Positions 27,729 to 64,000 of a stretch of 64,000 nucleotides of DNA are shown piece by piece. The DNA comes from Styela clava. Its lineage: Eukaryota; Chordata; Ascidiacea; Stolidobranchia; Styelidae. A model generated the notes under the pieces. That model did no database searches and was not told the DNA's origin. It saw only the letters and a program-made list of their open reading frames with translations. The stretch spans positions 10,197,135-10,261,134 of the forward strand of contig NC_135255.1 of the NCBI RefSeq assembly GCF_964204865.1, written 5' to 3'. How positions within the stretch are numbered: position 1 is the first letter of the stretch; every line of letters starts with the position of its first letter. The translations under genes were made by a program, and so were the position numbers.

Positions 27729-28568
27729 ATGTCAGAAGACTGGAGAGAGTCAGGTACTGCGGAACGATATCTATGGACTCCAAAATATCCTTCATCCATA
27801 GCAGAATTCGTTATAAGTCGTCTTCGAAAGTTGAATTTATATAAAGACTCCGGAAAATTTGACTTAATCTTGGACGTTGGATGTGGCTACGGCGAATCTC
27901 TCAAGTACTATGTCCCGTTCTTTCACAAAGCGATAGGATTCGATATCAGTGAAGAACAAATAGGAAAAGCTAGGGAATTGAACGAATTTAACAACGTAAC
28001 TTTCTTACTTGGAAAAGGAAATTTGTTCCCTGTTGATGATAACTCTGTAGATTTGATTGTCTGTGTGGGCACTGCGCATTATCTGGACGCAGCACACTTT
28101 GTAACTGAATGTAAAAGAGTAATCAAAAAGGGTGGATTAGTTGCCATCTATTCGCACGAGTTTGCAGACTTACACGTCGAGAATGTCCTCGATCGCGCTA
28201 GTATTCCAGGATACAAAATATTGAACGAAAACTTTCTCAGCCCAATGCACAATGATTTCTTTAGTGTGGACCACCCAGTTTGTGAATGGATAAACCGATA
28301 CAAAGGTATTTATAACATGCCATCGGGCATGAGCAAGCAGAGATCAGATGATTTGTCCTTCGATTATCATCTAAATTTGAAAGAATTGAAGAATATGTTT
28401 CTTTCGAGTCCCGTGTATAGAAATCATCACATTTCTTTCGATGAGGAATCGGCGCCATTGACTTTGATGGGACAGAATTTAAAGGACCTCGCTAGAGTTA
28501 GTGGTTGCAAAGATGAAGATTTAAACCTGCGTTTGACATTATCTCTGTTCTTCGTTTTCCTCTATTGA
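27729..28568 (+). CDS. SAM-dependent class I methyltransferase, intronless (279 aa)
   Basis: A Rossmann-fold methyltransferase of the Methyltransf_11/25 type, like animal and Dictyostelium cytosolic proteins annotated only as putative methyltransferases. Seen: motif I DVGCGYGESL (about residues 49-58), acidic end of strand 2 in GFDISEEQI (about 74-82), a GKGNLFPVDDNSVDLIVC block containing motifs II/III (about 98-115), and IKKGGLVAIYS after helix E. The start AERYLWTPKYP fits the family. There are no introns while most neighbours have many, so it could be a retrocopy. The last ~13 residues (LRLTLSLFFVFLY) look less family-like than the rest and may reflect a changed C-terminus. An AATAAA lies near 28808. 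The substrate cannot be inferred. Confidence 0.85.
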   Translation: MSEDWRESGTAERYLWTPKYPSSIAEFVISRLRKLNLYKDSGKFDLILDVGCGYGESLKYYVPFFHKAIGFDISEEQIGKARELNEFNNVTFLLGKGNLFPVDDNSVDLIVCVGTAHYLDAAHFVTECKRVIKKGGLVAIYSHEFADLHVENVLDRASIPGYKILNENFLSPMHNDFFSVDHPVCEWINRYKGIYNMPSGMSKQRSDDLSFDYHLNLKELKNMFLSSPVYRNHHISFDEESAPLTLMGQNLKDLARVSGCKDEDLNLRLTLSLFFVFLY

Positions 28569-32365: not shown

Positions 32366-32412
32366 ACATTTTAGCTCATTTACAAATATTATGTCAAAAA
32401 CATTACAACAAA

Positions 32413-34212
32413 TTAGGTTCCAGGTGCAAACCCAGAGGAGCCGCCGCGACTACTAGGAGGTCCGCTGGCCCAACGTGCTGAACTTCCTCTTGAAGTCGGT
32501 GCAGCGCCTCCGCTAGAAGATCCTGGAGATGCGGGAGCACTTGCAAAATCCCCATATTCAAAATCCGACCCTTCATCTTCTCCCCCTCCACAGTCAATCC
32601 CTGCGTAGGTTTGTAAAAATGTGTGAATTCAAAATTCATTTTATTCACATTGGAAAAATGTGTCCAATTTTTAACAACCGGCGAGTGTACTCTGACAAAC
32701 TACGACTAGATTCCTTTTAACTGAGTTATGTAGACAGAACAAGAAAATGATATTCGTTTGATTTTGAAATACAAAGAAATCTTAATTTACCTAATTCTTT
32801 TGCAGTTTCTCTCACTCTGCTGATTGATGTTCTCTCTGTCATATCTGTAAGAGCTGAATCAAAGCATATCCCACCTGCGTTGAAAATACATTTGACAGAT
32901 TGGTTTAATAAAATCTTCTTTAGAATATGTCCAAGAAATAGTATGACACAATGGCACAAGCTTCAAATCAGTGCAGGGCTAGGCTATAGGAATCGAGCCG
33001 GTGATATCAATCTTTACATTCTTTATACATTTAAGTCGCCGCATCCAGGACTTTGTTGGAGTAAAAAGATAAAGCATGTTACGAAGAAGTTTTTTTGAAG
33101 TATATATATATATATAGCAATTTCTATATGTACTTTAAACTCGTGTTTAGATTAAACTGTAAGAAATGTCGTGTTTATTATGGACACTTGGCTGTTTATT
33201 CCGACCAATAATCTGGCATCTGTGAGTTCTCCCGCAAGTCGCTCTTTTCTAAGTGCTCTGATATTTTGTTATTTGTATGTTCTATTTTTCATTTTTGTTT
33301 TATTTATTCAGCTATTATATGAGGTGTTGGTGATATATATGAATAGATTAAATTGTGTGTAACTGCCGGAATAAACTGATCCTCTGATGTTCATTACTAT
33401 AATAAAGTCAATGCAACAAAGGTTGGCTGGTCTATTTGGATCGGGCTTTTTAAGTGTTTTTGTTGTTACTTGCACATTGGATCACACAATATAACTACAT
33501 ATTTCTAGTTAGGTGATACCACCAGTTATGACCTACATAAACTACTTGTTTATTAGTTCTGAAGTTAAAGTTTGCATAACAATGAAAAAACAATATTCGC
33601 TTACCTGTGTCTCTGAGTTCAGCACCAAGATTCCAAAGTTCCTTCAATTTATCTGGGTCTATTTCAGCAGCTATACTGTCCTTGTCGCTGTCTGAAATGA
33701 ATAGTTCAAGACAGTTCAAAAATTCAATGGAAATGTAACTTTGAAATTCATTATCTTCAAAATATTTAGCCCTTTTTAGACAAATCCATTTTTCTAAATT
33801 AATAATAATTTATCAGAATTAAAATAAACTATGGTACTAACCGTGGAATGAACTTGGAACATAGGCATCCACTAAAATATCCAAAAATAGTCTGTTGACA
33901 GTTTCGGGAATCAATTTCGATTTCACTGAAAAAAAAATTAAAACTATTGATCACAAATCTATTATTTCTACCGCAAAATTTGGTAAATAAATCATTTTTA
34001 ATCATAAAAGAAAGTGTTTTCTGTATTGACACACAATTTTGTGCTTTCTTGTGTGTATCCTGACATGTAAGTACTTTTGGCAATTGGTTCACGAAATATA
34101 AATATATACTTACATGTTAAGTTCTGGGATCCGCATACTTTTGTAATGATTTCATAAGCTGCATTGTTTTGATCAAGATAGTATTCTTGTTCGACAACAG
34201 GATAAGGAACGT
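32413..34212 (-). CDS. Secreted family exons 8-12 without a 5' end (B1 cassette)
   Basis: Exons in transcript order: 34114-34212, 33842-33925, 33605-33691, 32791-32844, 32413-32600. They match exons 8-12 of B2 in unit 2 almost base for base, and all splice sites are intact. Exon 8 gives VPYPVVEQEYYLDQ and KVCGSQ; exon 10 gives DSDKDSIAAEID; exon 12 is the Ser/Gly tail. One difference is a Gly codon where B2 has Glu near the start of the tail. No signal-peptide or core exons (1-7) lie between this cassette and unit 2, so it has no start of its own. It is either a duplicated remnant or an extra in-frame cassette spliced to exons 1-7 at 39.6-41.4 kb; the phase-1 borders allow this. Confidence 0.7.
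33105..33117. repeat. Short (TA)n tract
   Basis: AT dinucleotide run in an intron of the B1 cassette, with an equivalent near 38070-38085 in unit 2; similar tracts occur at 22890-22908 and 50408-50430. Confidence 0.6.
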
Positions 34213-35453
34213 CTAGAAAAAGATTTTTACCAACCAAATCAAAAAATGATTAACAAGAGAACAATCCTCAAATATATGGACACGACAACCAAATCACAAC
34301 CAATTTACTTGATGCAGCATTTGTTGAGCCGTTCTCGTATTTGTCCCTTTAATTAAAATGGTGGTTGGTTTGAGTTGCGTACTTATTTTGTCTTAGATAG
34401 ATGCTTCGTTCATGTTTTGCGTACAAAGCTACTTTGGAAACGAGGGACGATGTTTTTTTTAATAATATGCAACGCGTATTCACACCTAGCTGCCTTATTA
34501 TTTTGACGTACCAATGAACTACATTCCGCCGTATCCCCATGTCTCGGTCTCGCTCCCTCTCAGCGCGAACTGTTATAAGTATAAGTTTATTTTGATTCTG
34601 TTAACGGTAGGGTTTGTGGTGTTTCCAGGCAAACTGTGACACAGTTACAATAGTTGCTGCTAACTATAATTAAGACAATGAGTAAGCGTAAGCACGAGTT
34701 CGTTACGAATATAAAAGGAGTTTTCTAATGTCAAAGTCGAGGGAGTAAGGGCTATGCTCGCTGATTCTATTTCGATAATGATTTCCAATGACCAAAGACT
34801 GCTGAAGCAAATTGTTGGTAACGATAAATATGATTGATAAATTTTATCTATGTTTTGGCGCAGTAAAGGTAATATTTAAACTTATGTGTTTATGTTACGC
34901 AATAAATAATATGTTGTATCCACATTTTGGGTTGCTGTTCCCGTTCAAGATGACGAATGCTGGATGTTTAGTGTGTGTACCTTTCTTTGTAGCTTGGAAC
35001 ATTTTAGAGGTTATGTGTGGCTGTGACTTGAGGTAAAAATTGGAGTTCGAAAAGACTAGTGTGTGATTCCTTTTTTTGCGTTTTTGCCGTTGTCTAGTAC
35101 TCCCCCAAAATAACCTTTTGACACCCGTGCTTATTTTTGGCTCTAGGTAGATGGTTGGATATAGGTCATGAGTAAGTATGAAACTAATAAATCAGCTCTC
35201 TAATATTTATTAAAATTCGAAAGCAAGGAACATATTTTTATTGCGTTTTAAAACAAAAACAAATAAATCACTGTATTAAAATAACCAAGAAAAAATATTC
35301 CCTCATTATTCACAATGACCTAAGCATCAATGGAATGTTGGCTACTTGTATACAGTTTATGTCTCTGAGGTTCAAGTTCTGTTCATCGATTAAATTTATC
35401 CGTATGGATTCTTTCCCGTGCCCAAACATGTGAGAATAAACAAATTCTCTTAC

Positions 35454-35498
35454 CTAATTCAGTTTCACTTTCTGTCACTTGGATGCTAGACATCTTGT
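35454..35498 (-). pseudogene. Orphan copy of exon 11' in unit 2
   Basis: The same 45-nt exon as 30484-30528 with intact splice sites, but the following terminal exon 12' has been deleted from this unit: the flanking sequence jumps from ATTGCGTTTTAAA straight to ACAAAAACAAATAAATC. It could only be used as an internal exon if spliced on to unit 1 exons. Confidence 0.6.
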
Positions 35499-37331
35499 CT
35501 GTAATATCTGCGGATACGATTTCAGTGAATATTAGCTACTCGAGCATAAAAAATTGATCTGATTTTCCTAATCACAGCTAAGTTTTTAAAGAAAAATCTA
35601 AATATTTTTGGTTTAAGAATCTATGGATTAAAGCATAACTTAGATATATATGTATATCTTTTATACAAGAGCCCAAATATTTTAAATATAAAAAAGATTG
35701 GGTACTTTCTGGTATGTAAACTAAGTTAGGGTTAGGCCATAATTATATTCCGATTTTCCTTATTTTAGTTCTATTACGAGTTCGGGAACTGACTGTGTTA
35801 GCCAAGTGAATATATCCCCTGTCTATAGGCTTCCGTTCTTTTACACAACTTGATGAAAAGTAGGTGAACAAAATTAGTTACCTCCATATCGGTACACACA
35901 CTTCTGAAGCGCCGTAAATTGCATACATAAGCAACACACTCCTTAATAAAATGTCCTGTTTCTTTTTGTCCTCGTGGGATAAGCTGAAGATTAAGTAAAA
36001 TCATAATCATATTACCACCGCGCTTTGTCTGGCCCAGCATGGACTGTGACAGATTATTGCTCAACCTCAATAACATAAAACGGTCTGATTAATCTGAATA
36101 CGACTCCCGTCTCTTGGGCGTTTACTCTACATTGGTCCTATTTTTGCGTGAAAATGGATTCCTCGCGACCTATCAAACGGGTTCTGCAATGGTTATTTAT
36201 TCGAAGTTTTTATGTATGCTCAAATATGTGCTACCTCCTACTCAACGCGATAGTGAAATATCAGAATATTCTTAATAAGAACACTGTGACTGTGGAGGTT
36301 TCTTATGAGTCAAACTTCCTATAACAACACAACCGTTGTGGGCGTTGTTGAAGGCATTCACTTGATTGACTCAATAACACATTACGTTTACAAACACTTT
36401 TAAATACACCGAGACATCACAGGCACGTAAAAATTTAAAATACTCGATGGAGAATATTAATGAGACAAAATTCCGTAAGCCCGTGCCACGACATGTGGTT
36501 GAGTTGTTTTATTAGCTATCCTTCTTCGTTGTAAATGTCTGAAATAAAAACCCGAATCTAAATCCCTAACCCTAGATGGTTGGTTGGTTCACGTAAAGTC
36601 ATAATCTTATTCCATTTTCTGGGGTTGCACGGAATTCACAATCAGTTACGGACGTTTTTCAACGACATTATTTTATTTTATTGAGCATTATTTTACTGTG
36701 ATTGCCCTTGCCGACATTATGACGTAAAACTCGACAAATTTAGAAATTTCTTTACTCATTGTATCTGTCGATTGATGTTATATTTTTGTTTTCGAAATGT
36801 GTAGTATCCATTCAACTGAAGATAAGTCTCTGACGTTGTTGACGTAATCTGCTTTTGACTCAATGAATGATAGTGTGACTGACACAATGACTTGATAGGA
36901 ATTTGCGACCTCTCGTCAATTGAGGTTGAAATGTTGATGTCCGTTTCACCAATTTTTTTTAGGTTTTTATTTTTTTCAATTACACAAAGTTTCTTGCAAA
37001 ACCAAAAATGAGAATGAATATTCTATTACCTGGCTACTCCTACAGCTGATGTAGACTTGTAACCAACAAGTATATAAAATGCCACATTATATAAAAAGAA
37101 CCACCCAATATCGATATTTTATTCTATCTCTATCGCCACGACAGAATAAAATAATTCCTTCCCTTCATAAACATCGTTTTACGCAACACAAACATAATAT
37201 TCTTCTTATATTACCGAAAAAACGCTAAACATCACATCCGGTTTCTCAGAATTCTGTAGCATCTGATTTTGACATTTGCTACTATCTCACTGTCATTGCG
37301 ACTAAATTATCACAAGTATCCTCTAACTGTG

Positions 37332-37337
37332 TTTATT
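37332..37337 (-). terminator. Polyadenylation signal of gene B2
   Basis: AATAAA on the minus strand, about 48 nt beyond the exon 12 stop codon. Confidence 0.6.
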
Positions 37338-37384
37338 ACATTTTAGCTCATTTACAAATATTATGTCAAAAACATTACAACAAA

Positions 37385-40300
37385 TTAGGTTCCAGGTGCA
37401 AACCCAGAGGAGCCGCCGCGACTACTAGGAGGTCCGCTGGCCCAACGTGCTGAACTTCCTCTTGAAGTCGGTGCAGCGCCTCCGCTAGAAGATCCTGGAG
37501 ATGCGGGAGCACTTGCAAAATCCCCATATTCAAAATCCGATCCTTCATCTTCTTCCCCTCCACAATCAATCCCTGCGTAGGTTTGTAAAAATGTGTGAAT
37601 CCAAAATTCATTTTATTCACATTGGAAAAATGTGTCCAATTTTTAACAACCGGCGAGTGTACTCTGACAAACTATGACTAGATTCCTTTTAACTGAGTTA
37701 TGTAGACAGAACAAGAAAATGATATTCGTTTGATTTTGAAATACAAAGAAATCTTAATTTACCTAATTCTTTTGCAGTTTCTCTCACTCTGCTGATTGAT
37801 GTTCTCTCTGTCATATCTGTAAGAGCTGAATCAAAGCATATCCCACCTGCGTTGAAAATACATTTGACAGATTGGTTTAATAAAATCTTCTTTAGAATAT
37901 GTCCAAGAAATAGTATGACACAATGGCACAAGCTTCAAATCAGTGCAGGGCTAGGCTATAGGAATCGAGCCGGTGGTATCACTCCTTACATTCTTTATAC
38001 TTAAGTCGCCGCATCCGGGACTTTGTTGGAGTAAAAATATAAAGCATGTTACGAAGAAGTTTTTTTGAATGATATATATATATATAGCAATTTGTATATG
38101 TACTTTAAACTCGTGTTTAGATTAAACTGTAAGAAATGTCGTGTTTATTATGGACACTTGGCTGTTTATTCCGACCAATAATCTGGCATCTGTGAGTTCT
38201 CCCGCAAGTCGCTCTTTTCTAAGTGCTCTGATATTTTGTTATTTGTAAGTTCTATTTTTGTTTTATTTATTCAGCTATTATATGAGGTGTTGGTGATATA
38301 TATGAATAGATGAAATTGTGTGTAACTGCCGGAATAAACTGATCCTCTGATGTTCATTACTATAATAAAGTCAATGCAACAAAGGTTGGCTGGTCTATTT
38401 GGATCGGGCTTTTTAAGTGTTTTTGTTGTTACTTGCACATTGGATCACACAATATCACTACATATTTCTAGTTGGGTGATACCACCAGTTATGACCTACA
38501 TAAACTACTTATTTATTAGTTCTGAAGTTAAAGTTTGCATAACAATGAAAAAACAATATTCGCTTACCTGTGTCTCTGAGTTCAGCACCAAGATTCCAAA
38601 GTTCCTTCAATTTATCTGGGTCTATTTCAGCAGCTATACTGTCCTTGTCGCTGTCTGAAATGAATAGTTCAAGACAGTTCAAAAATTCAATGGAAATGTA
38701 ACTTTGAAATTCATTATCTTCAAAATATTTAGCCCTTTTTAGACAAATCCATTTTTCTAAATTAATAATAATTTATCAGAATTAAAATAAACTATGGTAC
38801 TAACCGTGGAATGAACTTGGAACATAGGCATCCACTAAAATATCCAAAAATAGTCTGTTGACAGTTTCGGGAATCAATTTCGATTTCACTGAAAAAAAAA
38901 TTAAAACTATTGATCACAAATCTATTATTTCTACCGCAAAATTTGGTAAATAAATCATTTTTAATCATAAAAGAAAGTGTTTTCTGTATTGACACACAAT
39001 TTTGTGCTTTCTTGTGTGTATCCTGACATGTAAGTACTTTTGGCAATTGGTTCACGAAATATAAATATATACTTACATGTTAAGTTCTGGGATCCGCATA
39101 CTTTTGTAATGATTTCATAAGCTGCATTGTTTTGATCAAGATAGTATTCTTGTTCGACAACAGGATAAGGAACGTCTAGAAAAAGATTTTTACCAACCAA
39201 ATCAAAAAATGATTAACAAGAGAACAATCCTCAAATATATGGACACGACAACCAAATCGAAATATTTTCCCCACAATGTCCCCCAATACAACAATATCCT
39301 GGACAAAGCTGAAACTGTGAAAAGCTTTACCAGGTCTTGTGACAATGATGATTCATGCGTGGGGTGCCAACATGATTTAAAATTCTGAATGATTCGACTC
39401 ATAGTGTCCAATAATTCAATACAAAAAATATAAACTAAGACACATTGTCAGAAGTAAGAATCAGAATACCAAATTAATTTCATTTTCGTATCTTTTTTGT
39501 ACACATACAATATTTGTACACGTGCAATATTGCTTGAAAATTTAATAACATATCGCAAAATCTTTTCGAACAATTTTTACTGAATTCGTATCTAACACGT
39601 TAACATACTTAAAACAATATCCCAGAAGATCGGGTCCACAACAAATTTGAAGACGTCATAAACTGTGAAAATAAAAAAAATAAAAAATATAAATCATGCA
39701 GTTGAAACGCAATACAATATTTTTGATATTTTTTAAAGTATTTTAAATTTCCAAATCGTTGACAATTTTTTACCAATATTTTTTTAACCATACCTTTTTT
39801 TCTGTTTCTTCTGTCAGATTGCCAATTAAATCAAATGAATTAACTTATCATTGGTAGGTATGCTGTATGCATGCCAAAAATTTTATCATTTTCATGGCAG
39901 TTTGCAAACAGTATTAAATGAAAAAGGAACAGTCCTAAATGTAGTAAATATATACATATATATGTATTGGTCATAATATGGGTTGATATATCATTAAGTT
40001 CTTACGTGGCCAAAACTTCTTCGATACACTCATCATCGCCGTTGCCAGTTCCGTCATTGCCATATAGTCGTTGCTGAGTTTTTCAACAAACGCGTTGTTG
40101 CTACATATCGTAAATTTACAATTATTGAATGATTCGATAGCTTTTTCTTCTTCCTCTGCGGACAAAAAATCGTTGTAACCCCAATCTCGGATTTTGTACT
40201 TTACGAAGCTTTCTATTATCGAGCACTGAAAGAAGATATTCAAAAATGCACTTATTCTTCAAGCCAGTGTACATAGAAAGATTAAAATAAAGTATATCAT

Positions 40301-41437
40301 ATATAACTGTGACGACATTCAAATATGCACGTTTTCCTACTTAAACAAAAAACACTGGGTAAATTCAACACCTTGGATCGATTGTTATCACTCTTGTATA
40401 TTTACTAAATTTTACTATAAACACATTTACCACATACCATTTTTATGATTCTTTGATAATCTCATAATTATTCAACTCCTACGCCGGGTATGATTCCATA
40501 TGGAACACGGCTCATTTTGTTGGAAAGCATATGCCCTCATATATTTCATACTTACGTAAATCTTACACTCTTTCAGATGATTACCATGAAAAATTAACAT
40601 CAGAAATGTTTATTTTACCTTCACGTCGTAATATTGTAAATCTAGTGGAAGATTCTGAAGAAAATGAAAATAAAAGAACATAAGTCGCAAGTGCGAAGAA
40701 CGTAAATCAAATAACTCAACTGCAAAAAATAAAATGTTCAAATGGACGCAGAAAATAAAATTACCTTTATTGGGAAATACAATGGAGGTGTGTACCAGTT
40801 GTTGCTCTGAAACAGATTTAAATCAAATATCATAAACAAAACTAATTTGAAAACCTAAATCTAATTTTTGAAAAGCAGATTTACCGGAATAGCTCGTTCC
40901 ATGTCCATAACGTCCTGAAATAAATTTTAAACAAATAAATTAAAACATTTATCAATCAAATTATGTTTACCGTGATTATGTTTGATCAAAATGATCGACG
41001 GTGGTCAAAAAAAATCTCGTTATTCGGTCAATGAACTTACGCCTTTTAGCCTTCAGCTCAGGACAAGCCTATATTCAAGAAGTCACATTGATGTGCGTAT
41101 CAATAACAAAGGAAATATATTATTTTATTTCGGTAAGCCTACACGATCAATGTCCATAGGTGCAATAGTATGCAGGTGCAATTGTCGTGGGTTCAAATTA
41201 CGGGTTCAAATGTACATGGGTTCAAATGTAATGGAACCACTTAAACACATGCTACTTAACTATAGTTTCTTATAAAAATAACATTCACTTACTTCTGCTT
41301 GAAGAACCTGTACATAAAATACAAGACATAAAAAATAATTATTGAAATGGAAAGCAAACAAAAAGAAACAAAACAAAAAGAAAATAACTTACATGAACGA
41401 AAAGTGCCCCAAATAGGATAGCAACAAGATAAGGCAT
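37385..41437 (-). CDS. Secreted micro-exon family protein, gene B2 (317 aa)
   Basis: Paralogue of gene A with the same exon plan. Exons in transcript order: 41393-41437, 41293-41307, 40885-40914, 40765-40806, 40619-40654, 40006-40225, 39609-39662, 39077-39175, 38805-38888, 38568-38654, 37763-37816, 37385-37572; total 954 nt in one frame. Exon 1 is a signal peptide (MPYLVAILFGALFVH). Exon 2 is only 15 nt (VLQAE). Introns 1-5 are phase 0 and 6-11 phase 1, as in gene A. The core exon starts with Cys and has SFNNCKFTICSNN; exon 7 ends near FWDI where gene A has YWSD; exon 8 has KVCGSQ; the tail is Ser/Gly/Pro-rich and ends GFAPGT. Exons 8 and 9 match gene A in length to within one codon, exon 10 exactly. 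The 5' half is single-copy and the 3' half lies in tandem unit 2. Extracellular, function unknown. Confidence 0.83.
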
Positions 41438-43005
41438 ATCTTCTCCTCGAAATACAAAATTCAGAACTAAATTATTATCATTCAATTCAACTGCAAAAAT
41501 TTTCTACAGTATGGTTACTTGAGTAAATTAAATAAAAAAAATTAATAAAATTTATGCTAGCTATGGGAGCTATTGTCCTAATTATTTTCTGCCAAAAACT
41601 GATCTCCGACATTAGAATTTGAAACTTTCCTCTAAATGCTTAACAGATTATAAAGCAAAATGAAGCTACAAGATCGTAGGAGCAGTATAATCTTCAAAAT
41701 TAATACTTTTTTCATCACTACACACATCCGTGCGGAATCTATTTCCGAATGAATTCGAATTTCAATGGACTTCAATGGAATCTAATTTTTATAATTTAAA
41801 TTTAGGAGCGCCAAGATCAGTTACGCCCCCCAAAGAAATGAAATGATGGACATCGTACGTTACGGTATCTTAAAACTAAATCAAATTTAAGTGTGCTATT
41901 AGGATAAACGATTCATTGTTGTCATAGCAGTATTTTTCTGTTTTTCTTTCACGCCAAATCATACGTATCATTATCTTAGAATTAGATGAAAAACATCACT
42001 AAGAAAGAATAAAAATATCTCGAGTTTCCTATTTAGGGGTCTAGAAGTTTTTAAACAAGATGATATTTTTCAAATAGGGATTAAAAATCGTGTAAGCAAA
42101 ACTACATATATATGCCCAATGAAAGCAAAAGCAATCGAGTTAGTTGGAAATATCGGAATTTTCTTTTGAGAACAAAACAACACAATTCATAACCTACGCT
42201 GAACGAGATTGTATCGCGGTATTGGGGCTGCGATATAGGCAATCTCCTACAAAATTCGTTGCATTTTCGACATTTAAACTATAACTGTAATATCTAAGCG
42301 GTAATGAACTAGAGACGTTTAACTCCCTTTTATTACAAACTATTTGTTTGTTTTCAAGTTCAATAATACAGGTTCTTTGTACTTGCTTGCTCGCATTCAC
42401 CTGAATTGCAGAAGTTATCACGTTACCAGTAGAAGCTTTCAATTTTCTTCTATGATTTGAAACGGATCAGTAGAGTATTACCTAACTCATTCTAAATGCC
42501 ATGCCGTAGAGTTACCAAACTACCATTTATGATAACTTCATGAAGTAGACTTATCCCATGAATAACGTCGACATTTTACATTTTTCTCATTTATGTCAGT
42601 TTATATAATATTTCATTGCAGTTCATGAATAGACAAATTTATGAACTCGAATATACTGTTAATATTGAATTGTGCCGTTCTTCAATAATTATGATATATA
42701 CATAATAATACTGTCCAATTTCACTCTTCATTATTGGCATATACTTGAGTGTGTGTAAATATTCAAATATAAAATGATATGTTAATTTTCTTAAACCTTA
42801 ATTGCAGAAGTGAAGAATGCTATGAGTATCACATTTATTTTCCTTGTTTCGTAAATAGTAAATACATAGCGAAACGTTATGCACTAATTTCAGAGGGAGT
42901 AAGATATCTTATCAACTCGATAAGGATTTACCGTGTAAAAGGAGCGCAATGAGAAGATTGTAAAATATAAATAAATGTATATACAAAGTGTATTTATATT
43001 CAACG
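41438..43005. other. Intergenic between gene B2 and the Kelch gene
   Basis: Both flanking genes read leftward, so this holds the B2 promoter and the Kelch 3' end. AT-rich; a minus-strand open frame at 42194-42442 lacks splice or homology support. No repeat recognised. Confidence 0.45.
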
Positions 43006-53499: not shown

Positions 53500-56400
53500 A
53501 TGGTAAGTGGCACTTTTTTCTATATATTTCATAAAAACAGCACTTTCATTTGGCTCGTTTTCTCCTCATTCATAGAAAATGGGCAAAGGAAGAAGGATTA
53601 GATTGTTCCGCCGCGAACATGGTTGGAAAAAATCGACCAGAAATCTTATCAAAATATTGAAAAATCGTTGCAATATTTTTGCACAAAAGAACAAAGCAAA
53701 GTGCTATGAGGTAATGTTATGATTATTTGTTGAAATAATTCAGCACTTGGATTCGAAAGGTTGGAATGGGAATAGAAAATCGAATCAGATCTTAAAATAT
53801 ATAGTCTAATCTCCAATGCTTTCTTTCTTAATTATTGTAAGAAATGTACGCTACCCGATATTGTCTGGATTTTTCACGTTCGTGAATGATGATTCAGGAA
53901 TTGCCAAATTGTGTTGGTCCATCCGAGTTCGAACGTATGGACCCAGATGAACAACCTATTCCATCATTAGCTAGGGAACTCGGGGTTTTGATTTAATTAA
54001 ATAGTCTGCATCTAATCAAGTCTATTAGCGCAAACTTTTCGGTGCTTCCGAAGTATTCGTACCAAGATGGCGCACAACCTGAACATTATATGTCTGCCAG
54101 GTTAGGGTTGTTCAGGTTGTGCGCCATCTTAGTAGTTGGCGCTTCGGAAGTATTCAAATCAAGATGGCGCACAACCTAAGCATTGTATGTGTACCAGGTT
54201 ATGGTTTTTCAGGTTGTGCGTCATCTTGATACGAATACTTTCGGAGCGCCAACTTTTCGGTCCTTGATGGGGCTTCGTCGCCGCATATGATTAATTCGGA
54301 TGCCTCGCCTGAATAAATCGGGTTTGAAAGAAGATTTTCGAATTCAAATTTACATTTTCGGCTCAGTGAAAAACGCAGCTGTATCGAAAATTGTGATAGA
54401 CTAATAGTTGTGATCTCCGAGGCGATGAATTAATTTACTGCTTACAAGGCAACGCAGGATTGCGGTTTCGTTTTTTTTTATCTAAAGATCATGATATAAA
54501 CCGTAATTTTCAATATCCCAAGAATGTATAGGTGTATTTTAATTATTGAGATCGGGATCTATACAGGTTCCTTCAGAAACACAGATACCGGATTCCGTAT
54601 GGAGGAGGATAGCCAAATGGATCAGACGGCATTGTAAAAAAGTTAGTTCGAGTTAATTCTTATTTATAAAATATTTCAATATATATTTATTTAAATAATT
54701 TATTTCTGCTATGGTCTCAGGAACGGATGCTCAAATCTCTTACACTTTTAGCCCCTATCAATACTTATCCACGGATATCTATACCCAATTCCACAATTCC
54801 TGCAATTGTCCCTGACTGCACATAAAATCTTAGAACGATTAAAGTCCGTAAAAAAGTCAATCTAATAAAGTTCACAACGGAAAAGTAAAAGATAACCATT
54901 CTCTTTCTAACATTTCAGCTGTGCGTCTGCACATCGGCACATCGATCTGAAAGCTCAAATGATGTTTCGGAAGAAAAAGTAATTCTTATTTGATAAAAAT
55001 TATTTTAACTTGTTCTCACGTTTTTTTATCAGCTCATTATCGTTGGTGTCTAAAGGAGTATTCTTTATCCGTGGTATTCATATCAGAGATCTCTGATATG
55101 TACCCTTGTATGCGTGTTTCAGAGATATGGAATTCTGTTGCAGTGCTTCCAGAAATAGATATATAAATATATCGACAACCAAATCCTGATATATACCAGC
55201 CACTAAACGCTAAAACCTCGCCAGTACCACGACACTGAAGAGTAAGACCCGACCCCTGCTTCTGCTTACATTAGCAATATTAGTAATATATCTGTTCTGT
55301 ATGGTTAATTAGGACGTGATTAAATGTAACCATTTCCGTCTATTCTCAGGCATGTGCTTGCTCACCGATCAACGTGGTAGTAAACAGTGCCAGTATAATC
55401 ACACTAAAAAAGGTGAATATATATTATAGTTTGTTTCCGTTACAAATTGAATTATTTTTCTTGACTAATGTAGCTTATATCAATTTTCCGCTCCCAAGTT
55501 TATAAAAAAAATCATGTGTACATTATAGCCCAAATACAGAATAATACAGTCGTGTTCAATTCCAACGTTTTAAAATTCAGTTCTATTTATACACATTTAT
55601 TATCTTTCATTTTCAAGCTCCCAGTTTGTACAACAAGTGACTTATCTGGAAGTTCCAGTGAGGCTGCACCCGTGCCGATAGTAAAGGTAACACGACAAAC
55701 TCTCTTTATATCATAAAAATTACGTTTATTCGTTGGCTTTTAAATATCATATACACGAGCAATTGATCTACATAAAAAAATCTGCATTATGTATCATTTA
55801 CCCAAAACATATTTTAATTCATCACAAGTGCTATTATTATGAATTTCATTTTAGTTTTTAGATTCGAAACCTTCGACATCAAAAGATCCATTTGAAGGAG
55901 AGGAAGATTCTGAACTATCATCCTTGTGGTATAGAATCCCCACATGCTATTCGGATGATGTAAAATTTTACGCTTTCATATTACTTCCCAAATTTTTTTG
56001 TTTGTCTTAATAATATTTTATAATTCAGGACTCAAGCCCAGAACCAACTCCTCGACCGTTCGCTAAAATAGTGGAACAGAGGCTAAGTCTCGATTATATA
56101 GAAAGAGTAAGTATTTTAATTAGGAATTAAAATTATGTTCTAATTTGGGGACTAAATAATTATACTTCTTTATTTTCAGATGGATATAGAATACGCTATT
56201 ATTCGTTCTATGGTAAGATGAGATCCATGAATGATTTGCTTTTCAGTGAATACTATTTGCAAGATGTTGTAACAGAAATATTTAACATTTTACTAATAAT
56301 TTTACAGGATACAGAGCAATGCGAGTCTCCAGATTTCATGGAGACATTGCCACGACCAGGCGACGTAATGACTGATTTATATATTGTATATATATAGTAA

Positions 56401-58506
56401 ATCCTATACAGATAAATCTAAAATTTACTTTCTTTTTTCAGAATAAACCAAAGATGAGCTTTTTTGCCGGATGGGACGGGGTATGTTCCGTCCGAAATAT
56501 ATTTTGAATGTTGAGATAATACTAAGTAGCCTAAGAATATTTAGACAATGTCTTGAAATTTTGTTTTTAAAAATACATTTTCATGCATTCTATATTATAA
56601 ACAAGTTTTATTTCAAAACCTCTAGTTGAGCCAGAAAAGATTTTGGGTCTTTATCGCTGTCCCATTTGGATATTACAGTTATAGTGTATTTTTCCAAATG
56701 CTGGATGATGAAAAGGTAATTCACCTACGTTTCTATAATATTTTTATTTTGTTTCAGCCGAATCCATTTATCCGGCTTCCAGGACAAACACCTCCGGGTT
56801 CCTGTACTCCAAGTGTATGGGAGGGGTTCACAGAGCTCAGGGTTTGTTGTTTTCTCCTGTTGCCCAAGTTTGAGTGAAACCAAATTAATTGAGCATTGAT
56901 ATTATTTCGAAAAAAATATGGGTTTTTATAATTACTCGAACTGCTATAATTCTCTTCCACTATTCATCCATGTTTACAATGTTGCATTGTTGTGCAATTT
57001 TGTACGAATGGCAGACTGTTCCACTATGCTAGTTGTTAGTAGATCTCACATATCCACCGTTGTTGGAATTATTTACGTCACATAATGATGCATGCCTTTT
57101 AAAAAGTATTTCTGATACAAAACCTTTTATATGAACAGAATTCAACTACTTTCTTTCGGCCTATTTCTCCTTCATCATCTTCATTTGGAAGTGGAGACTC
57201 TGAAGTTGAAACAAACAAAATCCATGAGGTTGACGTCTCGTTTACTATTGTTCTATATAATATATATATTAGCGCAATGTGTTTTTGTATTGTGTACCCA
57301 ACTTACAAATTACTAGAACATTGTTCAAAAGTATGTATTTTATGTAAAAAATATTGTTAGCGGCCAGTCCAAAACAGAAGCGCATACAGAATCTTATATT
57401 CATCTGTATATCACTCAGCATGCAACTGATCAATTTTGATAATATATGTTAAGCATTCTAGTAATGCTATTGCACATTTATTCGTTTCATACAATCATAA
57501 ATATTAATAAAAAAAAATGATAAGAAAATAATATATAATCCGGACATTCATCTACAGGTCGATGCGATCTCTATTGAAAGAAAGGAGGCGGGTAATGCAA
57601 ATGTGGGTCAAGGTTTTATATAATAGTTCATATAATTTGGTGAATTGGTATATATGTAATTTTTTTTATTATCGTTATATTGTCTTGTTGTAGACCGAAG
57701 TTGAACAACTAATGGATTGGTTGCTCAAGAAAGTTGAGAAAAACATTGGGGAAATCGGAGATACAGAATCGGATTTGATGGTGAATACAAATTCTACTTT
57801 GTTATATATATACATATAGTTTGAAGCTCGTTTTAAAGGATTCATTCAACAAAGGAAATTCTATTTATTAATTTACCCAAGGAAGTTTACCAAGAATTCA
57901 AAGTTATAGAAAGATTCTGAATTTCTCCATAAAATTTAATTACTTGAATCATACACAAGTCATTTTTTTTTCATTCTATATATATTCTTTCTGATTTATA
58001 CTAGGGAGCGAATCTTGTTCAAGAGGAAGATATCGCACCACGATTCGACCTAGCCATAGTTGAAGAAATAGTCAATGCAGACACGGTATGCCGAGAATTA
58101 AATTGCTGTATTTTATTAAAACCCCGGCCTATTAACCGAATGTTCTATATATATGTACCCATACAAAATATATGTTATCATTTGTTCAGTTCCAAATTTT
58201 TTTTTATTTGAGCTTGGTTGGGTAAATCAGTTGTTCATGATCGATAAAACTAAGTGGAAAACGAGATTGAAGAACACCCAGTTTTCTACAACAAAATTCT
58301 ACTTTTGCAGATTGATCCAACAATTGTGGATGAAGTTGAAGAAGAAGATATTGAAGTAAGACTAAGTTAGAATAATTGTTGGCTGTCTGTTACATCTACG
58401 AATTAAACGGGGAAGATTAATAATGTAATATGTTTTGTAATATTTTTAGATGGTGGTGGCAGAATGTATGAGTTGGATGCTTGGAGAGATTGAAAAGAGA
58501 ATATAG
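53500..58506 (+). CDS. Unrecognised micro-exon gene E, all introns phase 0 (~431 aa)
   Basis: No known family recognised. Exons: 53500-53502 (ATG directly before a donor), 53576-53710, 54567-54641, 54919-54978, 55350-55412, 55618-55686, 55855-55959, 56029-56106, 56180-56212, 56308-56364, 56442-56480, 56626-56715, 56758-56841, 57139-57228, 57558-57602, 57694-57780, 58005-58085, 58311-58355, 58450-58506. Every exon length is a multiple of three and every junction is phase 0. The N-terminus is strongly basic (MGKGRRIRLFRREHGWKK) with no signal peptide; several exons open with a Cys pattern (LCVCTS, ACACSP, LPVCTT); one exon is hydrophobic/aromatic (RFWVFIAVPFGYYSYSVFF); the C-terminal third is acidic with two similar segments, VEQLMDWLLKKVEKNI and VAECMSWMLGEIEKRI. 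Donors of 54567-54641, 55855-55959 and 57558-57602 are weak choices. A further candidate exon at 53898 and a changed frame past 58506 are listed separately. Confidence 0.72.
53898..53996 (+). other. Candidate exon of gene E with an in-frame stop
   Basis: After a good acceptor (ATTCAG) the phase-0 frame reads ELPNCVGPSEFERMD and ends in TAA at 53994. If terminal, gene E would have a 78-residue short form. If spliced at the weak donor GTTTTG (53985), 29 codons would be added in frame to the long form. Confidence 0.45.
54043..54250. mobile_element. Two palindromic MITEs in tandem (copies 4 and 5)
   Basis: Two hairpin units share AAGATGGCGCACAACCT arms, joined at about 54138 through GGCGCTTCGGAAGTATTC. 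The 10-bp word AACTTTTCGG flanks the pair (54033-54042 and 54251-54260). They lie in an intron of gene E. Confidence 0.75.
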
Positions 58507-58507
58507 G

Positions 58508-58873
58508 ATGGAACTGGATTTCCTGGGCGGAATTGCAGAATATCGAATCACGACTTCTCGTCTGGCGAAGATCCATCCTTATAGGAAATTCTGCAAGAAG
58601 AATAAAGACTGCTACAAGGGATCACGTGTCACCGTAAGCATAAGAATGTAACATAATCCACCCACGTCAGACTTTCTCAAACCTTACGTTTTACAGTTAC
58701 TTAAATACATTGTTTCTGTCTCGCACAACCTTTCATATTTCTGAGTAAAATGCACCAACATGTCAACACTAAATAATGGTAAACCTTGAATGTATTCTTT
58801 TTTCTATTTTCAGGATCCCAGATTCAAATTGAATCAGATCCACATTGAGGTGGATTACATCAAAAGAAGTTGA
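58508..58873 (+). CDS. Downstream frame of gene E: two exons, possible true C-terminus
   Basis: ATG at 58508 begins MELDFLGGIAEYRITTSRLA in the +1 frame relative to gene E and runs to a donor at 58633. The next exon, 58814-58873, continues at phase 0 (DPRFKLNQIHIEVDYIKRS and TGA). AATAAA signals follow at 59163 and 59239. Phase-0 splicing matches the rest of gene E, so this looks coding. In the +1 frame upstream of the ATG the sequence stays open for about a dozen codons. It could be joined to gene E by an alternative acceptor or a 1-bp assembly or biological frameshift, or be a separate small frame. Confidence 0.5.
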
Positions 58874-60201
58874 CTGGTGCAGTCAGCAGTCAGTATGCGC
58901 CCGGTACGGGGTACCATCTTGGCGTTGAAGACCTGAATTTTATTAGAGAACCTAAGTGTGCTTAAGCAAGGAGCCATGGCAAGAAGAGCGATACGATCAA
59001 TATAACATGCGATATGATAGCTAAATGAAGTTGAGATGGTTCGACTTCAATTATGCCGCTGTTTGGGCGGTAAATGTCAAGATCGAATGAGTTTGTGTTT
59101 GTAACTTGTATAAAATTGTCATTGGTGAAATTCGCAAGTAGACAAATTATATACTACTTTCGAATAAACATTCAGTTTAAAATAGAGGAATGTGCCAATT
59201 TTATGTATATATGTCAAATATTATAACCTTCTCACTGTAATAAATACATTCAATCTTATGCAATGCAAGAACACTTTTCCTTATCTCTTAATGATGGGTA
59301 TCGATTTGCGTATGTATTCTTTATTAATTCGTAAGATCTGTGAATTTGTATCAAATTATGTAATGATATAAATATGACATATACTCATCTAGATATATAT
59401 GATTACATCTTGTGAGACGTAAATACCTATTCATTATAATGTATTTGGTAACATTATGATAATGTTTAGTTTTACCATATGTTTTCGTTGAAATGATTAT
59501 TGTCATAAATGCCATAAATAAGATCGGCAAAAAGTAATATTTGTGTCTCGAAAGTTTGGTGTGACAACTTCTGCGATTGGTTATTGAACTAATGAGCAAT
59601 TTGGCTGTTATGAAGTTGGCCATTACACTAGTGGACAAGTCGCCAGGCACCGCTCATCTATCTTTTACTGGTGAATAAGGTTGTTTGCCAGAATATAGCG
59701 TTTGGTATCTCCCGTAATGTAAGATAATCGGGACAGTCGTGATCAGGCAACACTTCCAAAAACCAATTAGCATATTTCATTCTTACGGTCCATGTTACAG
59801 TCTCTAAAACGTTTCGCTGTGTTCAATCATTAGAATCGATATATATATAGCATTTTAATATTTCTGAAAAACTTTGGTTACAATGACTTGATGGTTAAAG
59901 TTACCATCACAGGGTAAAAGTCTCAGGTTCAAATAACATGACCATACCCTTACCTAGGATGTGATAAATTGGGTAGTCAACGTGTACCCTGGAAAGATCC
60001 CGGTCCCTTCAAACGATAGTAGCTTCTAGCAGTGACATTTATTCATAGCCTTGTTTTGATTGAAAGAAAGCCCCGTTTTGGCATAAGGAATAACTAATCA
60101 AAACATGAATATAAAAATTGAAGCATATTCTCGCGTTCTTGTTTTTCATTTGTTAAAGACACTAGGTATTTTAGACAGTGTGGCTATAATAAGTAATAAG
60201 A
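58874..60201. other. 3' end of gene E and intergenic DNA
   Basis: Contains AATAAA at 59163-59168 and 59239-59244. The remaining sequence to 60201 shows no supported exon. A stretch at 59885-59940 contains a weak B-box-like AGGTTCAAAT but no tRNA fold. Confidence 0.5.
59163..59168 (+). terminator. Polyadenylation signal downstream of gene E
   Basis: AATAAA about 290 nt after the TGA at 58873; a second lies at 59239-59244. It places exon 58814 onward in the gene E transcript. Confidence 0.55.
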
Positions 60202-61297
60202 ATGCGTTTTGTACTCTCCACGATATTCTGCACCTTAATTGCCCTTAGCTGTGCTTACGCCTTTTTGTTGATAAATTTGCCAAAGTTCGAATTAGAGGAA
60301 GGAGTAAATGACGAAGACGGCACGATGTCTTTTTCAAGGCGGCCTCCATTTATACGCGGAGCATTTACTCGGATGAATGGAAGGTGGGTGAATGTGCACA
60401 ATATTGTAACAATATCTACTTCTTCATTTCCGTAGATTTATTATAACCCTGAGTATATGTCGTATATATCACCTTTCGTTAAATAAAATCTGAAATGCTG
60501 TTGGATAAAGCTTCTAAAGTAGCAACAAAACATTTTGTAATATTCTTGTGTTATATCACTTCGAGTTTTTTTCCTGTTAATAATCAAAATTGAATTCTTT
60601 TTTTAGAAGATGTGTGGCCATGCGAGCCGATATCCATTTACTTATAAATATTACGTTTTTATTCAAAATAACTTCGAAACATAGATTAATAATCATTTAA
60701 AACGTGTAGGATAGATTCCTTGCAATCGACTAGGTAAAAAAAAAATCGTGTTGTTGACTAGGTCTTATTTTAGGTGGAGGGCTTATTTAAAAAAAAATTA
60801 AATTCAAGCTAGGTCTTATTTTCAGGGTAGGTCTTATTTTCGGGGAAACACGGTAGAAGTGAATAACCATTATTTCAATACAAATATATCCTGTGGTTGA
60901 AAGTGGAAACTAAAATAGGCTACTAAAATATTTCTCTAACTTTGTTTATAAAATGGTCTGTATTCAATAAAGATATTATTTTATTCGGACTTCTTTTTCT
61001 CATATTTTTAAGGCGAACTCACGTCGTACCGTCGGATGGCTGGAAACGCAAAAAGAGAGAAATACAACACCAGGAAGGCGAGTTTGCTATTTATTTTATT
61101 ACACATTGCACCTGTCATATCAAATATAAAATCTTGTTGAATAGTTTTGTCGAAATACTTGAAGGATTTTATGTTTTGCTTTCGATTGTATGTTTGTCTG
61201 TTATATAGAGCACTTAATTGCAAACATTAAAATAACGTTTTTTATTACTATTTTGTTTTACATATGCAGCCATAGACGAAGACATAGCACTTTTTGA
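60202..61297 (+). CDS. Small secreted precursor with dibasic sites, neuropeptide-like
   Basis: ATG at 60202 opens a clear signal peptide (MRFVLSTIFCTLIALSCAYA), then an acidic spacer (FELEEGVNDEDG), then RR and PPFIRGAFTRMN followed by G. Unspliced, the frame ends at 60435 (77 aa) with AATAAA at 60482. A donor at 60384 (AG|GTGGGT) can join exon 61013-61081, which turns the end into MNGRR, an amidation plus cleavage signal, followed by THVVPSDGW and KRKKR. A weak donor at 61082 could join 61270-61297 for a 92-residue protein. A signal peptide, acidic spacer and Gly-Arg-Arg-bounded peptide are the standard neuropeptide-precursor plan. I do not recognise the peptide. The first exon is well supported, the others less so. 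Confidence 0.55.
60482..60487 (+). terminator. Polyadenylation signal after the short form of the peptide gene
   Basis: AATAAA 47 nt beyond the stop at 60435; it would serve an unspliced 77-residue form. Confidence 0.45.
60741..60856. mobile_element. Repeat with tandem GGTCTTATTTT words
   Basis: Contains TAGGTCTTATTTT three times and GGGGAAACACGG at its right end. From memory this resembles a DNA-transposon-derived repeat widespread in animals, whose ends read CCGTGTTTCCCCGAAAATAA; the superfamily is not assigned. It lies in the putative intron of the peptide gene. Confidence 0.5.
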
Positions 61298-61428
61298 GTG
61301 AAAGAAGAAGAAAGAAGAAATCTATTTTAAAATACTTTTTGTACAATAATAAATCTTTGCAATACGAAAAAAATCTCTTAAACGTTTCACATTTATGCGT
61401 TTTCTCTACGCAAGCGCTACTGACGAGG

Positions 61429-61752
61429 ATGGTGTGGGAACCAAATCTAACTCAAGATGTAACAGATTTTAATCGCGACACCCCAAACAAGGATAATTAC
61501 TTACAAGTCAAGTTTATTTTTTCCAACCAGAAAAAAAGTCAGTTTCACACAAAATATGAGGAAGATAGAAAATCACACATTTCATCTGGGGAAGGGAAGC
61601 CGAGAGGAACCAATGCTGGTTATCGAGCAGCGAGATCTAAATACAAAAAATACGCTTCGTTGGTTCGAAACACGTGCATTCAAGCTTGCTTAAAAGTCGG
61701 TTATATGAAACTGATACTATTGTGTTTGTTGTTTAACCGCGAGCGAGCCTAA
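61429..61752 (+). CDS. Uncharacterised open frame, 107 aa, doubtful
   Basis: The frame stays open from the stop at about 61284 to 61752, and the first ATG is at 61429 (MVWEPNLTQDVTDF). The sequence is basic (RAARSKYKKYASLVRN) and ends in a Cys-containing hydrophobic segment (CIQACLKVGYMKLILLC). No signal peptide, family or convincing splice partner is visible. It is longer than most chance frames here, so it is recorded, but it may be non-coding. Confidence 0.25.
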   Translation: MVWEPNLTQDVTDFNRDTPNKDNYLQVKFIFSNQKKSQFHTKYEEDRKSHISSGEGKPRGTNAGYRAARSKYKKYASLVRNTCIQACLKVGYMKLILLCLLFNRERA

Positions 61753-62672
61753 CTTCAAAAAATCGTCTGATTTTTGTGCAGATAGTGTGATATCCTATTT
61801 TTAATCTTGGTTTATTTTAGTTAACATTTCACAACTTACCAAGTTTATAAAAAACCAGAAATATAAAATTTCATTTTATTATTATTATTACTTGTCCCCA
61901 CAAATTGTTTCTACGAAGATTCCCCACACAACAGAGGTTAAACTTGAGACACAGTGACGTAATGGGTAAAAAAAAATACTGAAAGAAGAGTCATATAAAA
62001 AAAATAAAAAAATTTATTTAGACCAAAAATCAGCAAAGCAGTCAAAAAATGTTTGATAAAAACAAAAATCACAAATTCTTGAAATTTCGGAATCATATTA
62101 AAATTAATTCCTGAGTATGGATTAGAAAATATGTCTAAATCACTGAAATTGGGGATCGGATTTCCCGGTATCCCATCCCCATTGCTTACTTAGGAATCGA
62201 ATTCATATTACCGACACCAAAACAAATTGTATTTTTTCGGCCGTAGTTGTTATAAGAATATGAGCATCCATATTTCCACAAATCGGAGGTTTCAATACGA
62301 AAGTCAACTGTTGACATTTGGAAAACAAAATTATTCGAAAATATTGCAAAAATTGGTGTTTTTATGCTGGTAATTCAATAATTATTTGCACGCAGTATTC
62401 AAAAAGTATTCTAATAAAAATTTACAGGAGTTCAAAACCAATAATCTCCGTTTTTAACTTTTTTTTAAAACAGTCTCAAAATTTTTTTTTATCAAATCCT
62501 TCTAAATATAAATTTACGGTTATCCACTTCTTTGTCTCTTTCACTCGATGTCATAATTGAGTGTTTGTTTAATATATCCGACGCAGTCAAGCAAAAAATT
62601 CTCCCGAGACACGTCGCCGATAACAGCATTTTTTTGGTCGTAGCTGGTGTTTTCCGCCGCTAGTATTGTAAT
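61753..62672. other. Intergenic, upstream of TM2D1
   Basis: Very AT-rich with homopolymer runs and no supported exon. The 5' untranslated region and promoter of TM2D1 should lie near its right end. Confidence 0.45.
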
Positions 62673-63221
62673 ATGTGCCTGAAAGACGCAAAAATAGCAG
62701 CCTATTTGACGTTGCTGACGGTATTTTACTGTACATCGTATGCCCAAGATGCATGTTCTGATCTTTTACCAGGACAATACCGCTGTGCTGAACCTCAAAT
62801 AGATGAGCATACTCAGGCTGTTGCCAACTGCACACCAGCTGGCAAGTCGAAGATTGACTGCTATCCTGTCAATGGTATAACATGTGATGGGAAATCGTTT
62901 AATGGAAGCCAAATTGGTTTCGAAAAACTAATAAACTGTACATATACTAATGGATATTCTTATACAACAGCACTTGGACTTTCAATTTTTCTTGGTTGGT
63001 TAGGGATAGATAGATTTTATTTAGGTTATCCAGCACTGGGATTATTGAAGTTTTGCACCTGTGGCATTTTTGGCTTAGGTGCATTTTTTGATTTTTTATT
63101 AATTGCATTGCAAGTTGTTCTTCCTGCCGATGGTTCAAATTATGTCATTGATCTCTATGGACCCCGATTGCGGGAAATTTCTATAAATGCTGAAACTTAT
63201 TTTAAACCACAACTTGAATGA
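62673..63221 (+). CDS. TM2D1: TM2 domain-containing protein 1 (182 aa)
   Basis: A two-pass membrane protein of the TM2D family (Drosophila almondex, amaretto and biscotti), linked to Notch signalling in flies; human TM2D1 was described as an amyloid-beta-binding protein. Seen: hydrophobic signal region at residues 9-24, a Cys-rich luminal segment (ACSDLLPGQYRC, NCTPAGKSKIDC), the first membrane span TALGLSIFLGWLGI, the family DRF motif with FYLGYPALGLLKFC, a second span, and the C-terminal DLYGPRLREISINAETYFK that separates TM2D1 from TM2D2 and TM2D3. Human TM2D1 is 207 residues, so the protein is complete. The gene has no intron here, unlike vertebrates. The start at 62673 is the ATG directly before the signal peptide. 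Confidence 0.93.
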   Translation: MCLKDAKIAAYLTLLTVFYCTSYAQDACSDLLPGQYRCAEPQIDEHTQAVANCTPAGKSKIDCYPVNGITCDGKSFNGSQIGFEKLINCTYTNGYSYTTALGLSIFLGWLGIDRFYLGYPALGLLKFCTCGIFGLGAFFDFLLIALQVVLPADGSNYVIDLYGPRLREISINAETYFKPQLE

Positions 63222-64000
63222 TAATTTTAGACTGTTTTTGTATACTATATCCAGATATATGTATACTCTTATTTAACACTGTGCTATTTCTATTGATCTT
63301 ATTAGAAGCAATAATCCAGTATGACCCAATTTGTCAAAATTATTAAGTGTAACTAGTCAGAATATATCATTCTGAAGTTATTCTCCTGTATTTGACTGCA
63401 TACTAATATGTTTTCTGTGGTTCCGCTGAGCTAATAATATACCAATTTAAACTGGCCCTGATTTGGTTTTCTCAATTTTCAGTGCTCAAAATGTCATTCA
63501 CTTGACTGAGTTGAACTGTATTATTTTTTTATTTGAGCCTGAAAAAAAATTCTTCAGATATTTAGTTTTTCAGTAATCTTTTGTCATTTTTCACTCATTT
63601 TGCAACTTTTTTTTGTATTGCTGTGTGGATATATGAAAAATCCGTTGTTATCTGTTTCATTTTTCAAACCAACAATAGTCTTTATATGTAATAGTAGTTT
63701 TGTTTTTTTTTAAGGGACATTCATAGTATGTTTCTATTTGAATGGAAAACTGCCTGTCATAATATGTTATTTAGAATGCAAATTTTTCTGATAGGATTAT
63801 ACCATTGCCATTCCATGCATTCTATTTCATATCTCAGATGATGAATATGGATGAATTTTGGAAAAATTATTGTTTTTATTTAATTTTTTCTGTGTTGTGC
63901 AGTATACTATTTTACCCGACTCAAAAGCAAAGCCTCAAGCGACCATTGAGAACTTTAGGAGTGTTAGTAAATTATCTATGAACCTAATTTGGTAAAGATA
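63222..64000. other. 3' flank of TM2D1
   Basis: AT-rich, probably 3' untranslated region for part of its length. I see no clear AATAAA close to the stop and no other exon before the window ends. Confidence 0.4.

Follow-up and report, generated by a model that had tools for sequence, protein, structure and literature searches.

Does an unbroken run of small exons whose introns all lie in one phase mark a real gene, and if so, how could such an architecture have arisen and what might it serve? This question is raised by gene E, which occupies positions 53500–58506 on the + strand of a 64,000-nt stretch of genomic DNA (contig NC_135255.1, positions 10,197,135 to 10,261,134; hereafter, the window). 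Our analysis indicates that E is very probably a genuine protein-coding gene belonging to a small, unrecognised tunicate family. We further consider it probable that the gene is functional and that its family, with symmetric exons (phase 0 to phase 0), grew by tandem copying and encodes an intracellular modular adaptor.

Exon model and intron phase of gene E

The initial annotation had given the span, the intron count and the range of exon lengths of the gene without an exon list, and the exons were hence rebuilt from the window sequence. The rebuilt model comprised 19 exons with AG/GT borders and 18 introns of 42–856 nt, all 18 in phase 0. All exon lengths were multiples of three, the ATG exon being 3 nt long and the others 33–135 nt. 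The coding length was 431 codons without an internal stop, and most splice sites were ordinary and strong. Because this list was itself selected in phase 0, a phase-unconstrained gene finder was used, in which dynamic programming allowed intron phases 0, 1 and 2 and codon scores were derived from 443 codons of two other genes in the window. It returned 15 exons with 14/14 introns in phase 0 at a score of 77.6, far above chains forced into phase 1 only (23.6) or phase 2 only (10.8) and the best chain on the reverse strand (at most 12.3). Dinucleotide shuffles (n = 200) reached a mean score of 11.3 and a maximum of 27.3. Among the 15 exons, 13 were identical to those in the rebuilt list, one had its acceptor 9 nt off and one lay downstream (58814–58873). 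The chain was entirely in phase 0 at intron penalties of 5 and 6, and its phase-0 core was kept across the tested penalties. The rebuilt list and the phase-free gene finder thus confirmed the previously described run of about 18 phase-0 introns with exons of 33–135 nt, apart from the ATG exon of 3 nt, and the gap between the real and shuffled scores agreed with the earlier judgement that such a single-frame layout is improbable by chance.

For comparison, the same gene finder was applied to three control genes of the same genome (DPP4-like, BTB-kelch and cellulose synthase), giving 27 introns in phase 0, 25 in phase 1 and 14 in phase 2, in models that are predictions and may include false exons. 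This count used three of six regions and omitted the two A/B regions described below and a TM2-domain region (6 introns, 2 in phase 0). At the control rate of 27/66, the probability of 18/18 phase-0 introns would be approximately 1e-7, with introns treated as independent.

Relatives of gene E and exon-block duplication

In the genome from which the window is taken (376.6 Mb), the E protein matched relatives on contigs C8, C9 and C14. When two of the relatives served as queries, C14 also gave a damaged copy, C3 a 5′ piece and C16 a cluster of relics, and these genome searches with E and the two relatives yielded no further family gene. As lower bounds, the family comprises five intact-looking genes, namely E, A16 (C14, 12.66 Mb), A17 (C8), A18 (C9) and A19 (C14, 11.03 Mb), as well as one damaged copy (A22) and fragments. 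The host was read as a tunicate because a cellulose synthase domain on C9 lies just before a GH6 match on the same strand, with one predicted gene model spanning both; we take a cellulose synthase–GH6 fusion to be a mark of tunicates.

The order of exons e01–e12, most of their borders and phase 0 were common to E, A16, A17, A18 and A19, and E showed 38%–42% identity to the other members over the compared exons. Because the four relatives keep the same exon order, mixed phases and several separate genes can both be answered, and the earlier reading of the locus as one gene appears to hold at the level of sequence comparison. When E and the four relatives were modelled without a phase constraint, 97/108 introns fell in phase 0 (E, 15/15; L016, 21/25; L017r, 22/25; L018, 22/24; L019r, 17/19), compared with 27/66 in the controls; the damaged copy L022, with 12/16, was outside this count. 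The match between E and its relatives was clear for e01, e02, e05–e09 and e12b and modest for e03, e04 and e12. Exons e06, e07 and e11 were length-invariant across the five genes, and the exact lengths of e06 and e07 suggest that at least these two are in use. Homologous exons of unequal length differed by multiples of three in 48/48 pairs, a result that is partly circular with models built in phase 0, and the length differences of homologous introns fell on remainders 0, 1 and 2 of division by three in 36, 36 and 46 pairs, respectively. The DNA similarity among A17, A18 and A19 was mostly exon-centred, with some blocks extending through introns.

Across the five genes, the curated models contain 98 exons, in which 94/95 acceptors were AG and 92/93 donors were GT, largely by construction; the two non-canonical borders were the e18 acceptor of A18 (AA) and the e03 donor of A19 (AT). 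Exon e18 was omitted from the A17 model, as no GT follows it, the ATG exon is unsettled for A16 and A17, and the A18 model omits the second copies of its block exons. Pairwise exon counts and substitution ratios omit e00, e18 and e12x, and the length comparison also omits e12b, because of unsure homology or borders.

The ratios of nonsynonymous to synonymous substitution rates (dN/dS) among the A17–A19 pairs were 0.295, 0.252 and 0.236, and those between E and the others ranged from 0.19 to 0.30 with saturated dS; the protein sequence is thus constrained among these members. The damaged copy A22, located ca. 16 kb from A19 in the opposite orientation, had its e07 interrupted by a stop and a frame slip, reached another stop late in e12 and showed no e01–e03. 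These lesions indicate that decay shows up where it is present. It might be suspected that E is a decayed gene or a set of phase-0 open stretches flanked by fortuitous splice sites, given that the exons were picked in phase 0 and that small exons are easily found in AT-rich DNA. However, the shuffles remained far below the real score, the borders are common to relatives, dN/dS is < 0.3 among the close members and the damaged A22 looks unlike the others. Such an artefact is hardly credible.

In A18, a recent tandem block of six exons (e03–e08) was found at L018 3145–6387 on contig C9, with its copies matching at 95.9% over 172 nt and at 96.6% over 1368 nt. This duplication represents a natural experiment in exon-block gain. 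A second e11–e12 pair occurred in A16 and an apparent one in E, where e12 was recognised by sequence and e11 by length and position. Specific to E were the aromatic exon e08x and two extra Cys exons after e03, all unmatched elsewhere in the genome. The C-terminal exons e13–e19 of the family were not detected after E (58401–64000) in an ungapped scan in which 25/26 queries were within the shuffled range; the remaining query, A18 e17, scored 23 versus a shuffled maximum of 21, with no evident likeness. From these comparisons, E is taken as a diverged, shortened member of the symmetric-exon family, and, at the level of gene models, exon blocks were shown to be duplicated or absent between members without loss of frame.

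With symmetric exons, skipping, duplication and loss are all frame-neutral, and the duplication of a phase-0 exon automatically yields new phase-0 exons. The all-phase-0 layout would most likely have arisen by tandem copying of phase-0 exons followed by divergence. It could be no more than a neutral by-product, that is, a functionless scar left by tandem copying of exons or by introns already in phase 0 in the ancestor, and we see the chances of this as evenly balanced. The six-exon repeat in A18, the repetition of an e12-like exon within E and within A16 and the self-perpetuating nature of phase-0 copying argue for such a by-product, whereas most exons now lack evident mutual likeness by eye and a shared origin for the whole set is unsupported.

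Alternatively, the architecture might serve as a regulated generator of isoforms, with cells splicing subsets of exons into many in-frame proteins, a role that has been suggested for the micro-exon genes of schistosomes. Any internal exon could be removed without loss of frame, an aromatic exon was detected in E but in none of its relatives, the 42-nt intron before e09 (56716–56757) is itself open in frame and could be retained, and splicing in A18 would need to bypass the broken copy of e09. Exon skipping in the mRNA is possible. Nevertheless, the ordinary, strong look of most splice sites in E and the exact lengths of e06 and e07 in all five genes argue against regulated isoform production, which we regard as a tentative and rather unlikely explanation.

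On contig C16, e01 copies in both orientations, mostly stop-bearing and partly in tandem, formed a cluster at 1656994–1703120 (loci L024, L025 and L026). The cluster was considered as a source of further family genes and rejected, with stops in 6/8 displayed matches. The three loci shared only exon e01 with the family in a DNA comparison. In one of four relics tested, the leader was joined straight to e01, with GTG replacing ATG, and matched the A18 leader exon at 17/19 positions; such a fusion would be expected if the copy derived from spliced RNA. In the remaining three relics, the 5′ flank matched neither the spliced leader nor the intron. The cluster could represent a small-RNA cluster or plain debris. 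On C3, only a 5′ piece of a family gene was present in the 9.9 kb examined.

Copies or pieces on C3, C6, C8, C9 and C14, together with the clustered e01 relics on C16, of which one in four tested looked spliced, might point to a mobile-element gene dispersed through the genome. However, transposase, integrase and polymerase domains were absent from the five proteins in a Pfam search, the copies are few, and the similarity between A17 and A18 stops ca. 100–220 nt beyond the coding region, with short pieces further out in the A19 pairs. A mobile origin is thus very unlikely.

Predicted protein, exon inventory and genomic setting

The first 90 residues of E have a pI of 10.5 and the last 150 a pI of 4.05. 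A hydrophobic N-terminus was absent on inspection of the sequence, without a dedicated signal-peptide predictor, the first 20 residues being basic; the most hydrophobic 19-residue stretch begins at residue 92. Because a hydrophobic N-terminus is absent, the protein is read as intracellular, and we infer that it is largely disordered, with a basic N-terminus and an acidic C-terminus. Three serine/threonine–proline (S/T-P) sites were kept in all five members (T-P in e05, ESPD in e07 and G.TPP in e09). A Pfam search with E returned no family at E-values up to 1; across the five members, no match reached the curated cut-off, and three families appeared with one member each. Searches of the PDB by sequence and by profile gave no relative above chance, and an Rfam scan of the window at gathering scores gave no match. 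The earlier description of an unfamiliar protein with a basic N-terminus and an acidic C-terminus was therefore upheld, as was that of Cys motifs opening several exons, where LCVC, ACAC and LPVC were found.

In the proposed mechanism, the basic, amphipathic N-terminus would bind nucleic acid, a membrane or a partner, and the middle part would consist of short linear motifs including the three kept S/T-P sites. The protein would then act as a modular adaptor in which each exon corresponds to approximately one motif or a few. A further-reaching version holds that the exons form a library of cassettes, i.e., optional frame-neutral motifs reshuffled by splicing and block duplication, making the family an intracellular, independently arisen counterpart of micro-exon and bicycle genes; we rate this as improbable.

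Several observations weigh against a working, tandemly grown adaptor family. The splice and amino-acid models of the gene finder are approximations. The gene finder skipped 5/19 listed exons (53576, 54567, 55855, 57139 and 58450) and favoured a different last exon (58814–58873), and introns outside phase 0 appeared near the chain ends at other intron penalties (2/22 at penalty 2, 2/19 at 4 and 2/13 at 7 and 8). The donor of e11 is weak, and e10, e11 and e11b are paired with relatives chiefly by length and position. In A18, the duplication breakpoint lies inside e09, so that the first e09 copy is cut short and contains a stop, and dN/dS between the two young block copies is 0.64, based on few changes in 144 codons. 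One of the five members has a weak Pfam match to the Mug60/KHD4 KH domain (E-value 0.028), and the cellular location and adaptor role rest on inference. As to the skipped exons, that at 53576 was regained at an intron penalty of 5, and all five have a positional counterpart in the relatives, e10 (57139) weakly so (7–9 of 25–27 residues). A functional, tandemly expanded adaptor family remains the reading that we favour.

The exons of E and the open frame that follows them are compiled in Table 1. This two-exon frame, for which a genome search gave no relative, could possibly be a separate small gene, the 3′ untranslated region of E or an alternative end of E. The 856-nt intron of E contains two 97-bp tandem copies of a AAGATGGCGCACAACCT repeat (54044–54227, 86% matches), and pieces similar to this repeat also occur in the A16, A22 and C3 loci.

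Table 1. Exons listed for gene E and the open frame immediately downstream, in window coordinates.
Feature	Position	Strand	Description
e00	53500..53502	+	Lone start codon ATG, followed by the first intron; ATG|gt layout also in A18 and A19
e01	53576..53710	+	135 nt, basic, KMGKGRRIRLFRRE...; in 4/4 relatives at 135 or 138 nt
e02	54567..54641	+	75 nt; also 75 nt in 3/4 relatives, not found in A16
e03	54919..54978	+	60 nt; Cys motif LCVC
e03b	55350..55412	+	63 nt; ACAC; possibly a diverged e03 copy; no genome match elsewhere
e03c	55618..55686	+	69 nt; LPVC; possibly a diverged e03 copy; no genome match elsewhere
e04	55855..55959	+	105 nt (relatives 99 or 162 nt); 7–12 of 33–35 residues identical
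e05	56029..56106	+	78 nt; conserved core EPTPxPFxKI
e06	56180..56212	+	33 nt in 5/5 genes; MDIEYAIIRSM
e07	56308..56364	+	57 nt in 5/5 genes; ESPDF motif
e08	56442..56480	+	39 nt; not found in A16
e08x	56626..56715	+	90 nt; aromatic segment; no counterpart found in A16–A19; gene finder acceptor 56635
e09	56758..56841	+	84 nt; PNPFIRLPGQTPP
e10	57139..57228	+	90 nt; matched by position and length, weak likeness
e11	57558..57602	+	45 nt (also in 4/4 relatives); weak donor gtgggt; 1–3/15 residues identical
e12	57694..57780	+	87 nt; LMDWLLKKVEK; 7–11/29 residues identical
e12x	58005..58085	+	81 nt; acidic; without clear counterpart
e11b	58311..58355	+	45 nt; resembles e11 in length and position, the second such exon; 1/15 residues identical to A16 e11b
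e12b	58450..58506	+	57 nt; e12-like; ends in TAG, the proposed end of E; 9/18 residues identical to A16 e12b
Two-exon open frame	58508..58633 + 58814..58873	+	MELDFLGG...; starts right after the E stop

The initial annotation had also referred to a nearby A/B family without positions, and the assignment of A/B to two genes on the − strand (18500–25000 and 32400–41800) is our own. In these presumed A/B genes, the first five introns were in phase 0 (exons of 15–48 nt) and the following ones mostly in phase 1, which accounted for 8/13 and 6/12 introns. Their products have a start that resembles a signal peptide by eye and a Ser/Gly/Pro-rich end. The first gene had no Pfam match; a genome search, made with the second gene only, matched this window alone and not even the first gene. 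The presumed A/B genes resemble E in their small exons, long single-phase runs and genome region but differ from it in the signal-peptide-like start and the change from phase 0 to mostly phase 1, and no likeness between them was noticed by eye. The proposal that the locus is prone to this architecture was unsupported, because the relatives of E sit on other large contigs (C8, C9 and C14), and the presumed A/B genes mix phases 0 and 1. From the earlier interpretation, one all-phase-0 gene with an unfamiliar protein has stood, the prone locus has not, and the family and the lack of detectable last exons had been overlooked. The window also contains a methyltransferase gene (27729–28496; PF08241) and a gene for a TM2-domain protein (62664–63221; PF05154).

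Comparison with known symmetric-exon genes

According to PMC9168663, it is rare for a gene to have many exons of one phase and similar size. The titles and abstract openings of literature on exon architecture in tunicates, ascidians, Ciona and Styela made no such family apparent. The E family itself is new, and its architecture is of a known kind, represented by micro-exon genes and bicycle genes. Passages of PMC8293314 describe the schistosome micro-exon genes (MEGs) as small, lineage-restricted families with exon duplication and many short symmetric exons that can be dropped in frame; most of these exons do not exceed 36 bp, and a signal peptide is present in the proteins. The E family resembles MEGs in its symmetric exons, exon duplication and frame-neutral loss. 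In contrast, only 1/17 internal exons of E is ≤ 36 bp (e06, 33 nt), E lacks a hydrophobic N-terminus and its host is a tunicate.

Aphid bicycle genes, as outlined in parts of PMC9168663, are fast-evolving and have on average ca. 17 exons, with small internal exons nearly all in one phase, namely phase 2. The same source describes a repeating structure in their relative megacycle and regards the bicycle proteins as putatively secreted salivary effectors. With 19 exons, 17 of them internal and 33–135 nt long, E likewise has many small same-phase exons, but these are in phase 0 (18/18 introns listed, 14/14 phase-free) and the product is not evidently secreted. Fibrillar collagen genes also consist of many short exons, all in phase 0, and have grown by exon duplication, with proteins built of Gly-X-Y repeats. 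The E family shares the many short phase-0 exons with these collagens; however, it has no Gly-X-Y repeats by eye, and its exon lengths are not built on 54 nt.

In the literature searched, the two animal families found with such an architecture, MEGs and bicycle genes, encode secreted proteins linked to host interaction. A charge-split, apparently intracellular phase-0 family in a tunicate suggests that this architecture arises repeatedly, including outside parasitism. The extra and missing exon blocks within one genome provide a test case for the gain and loss of motifs via symmetric exons, and the same family is also suited to asking whether symmetric-exon genes of this kind also exploit exon skipping.

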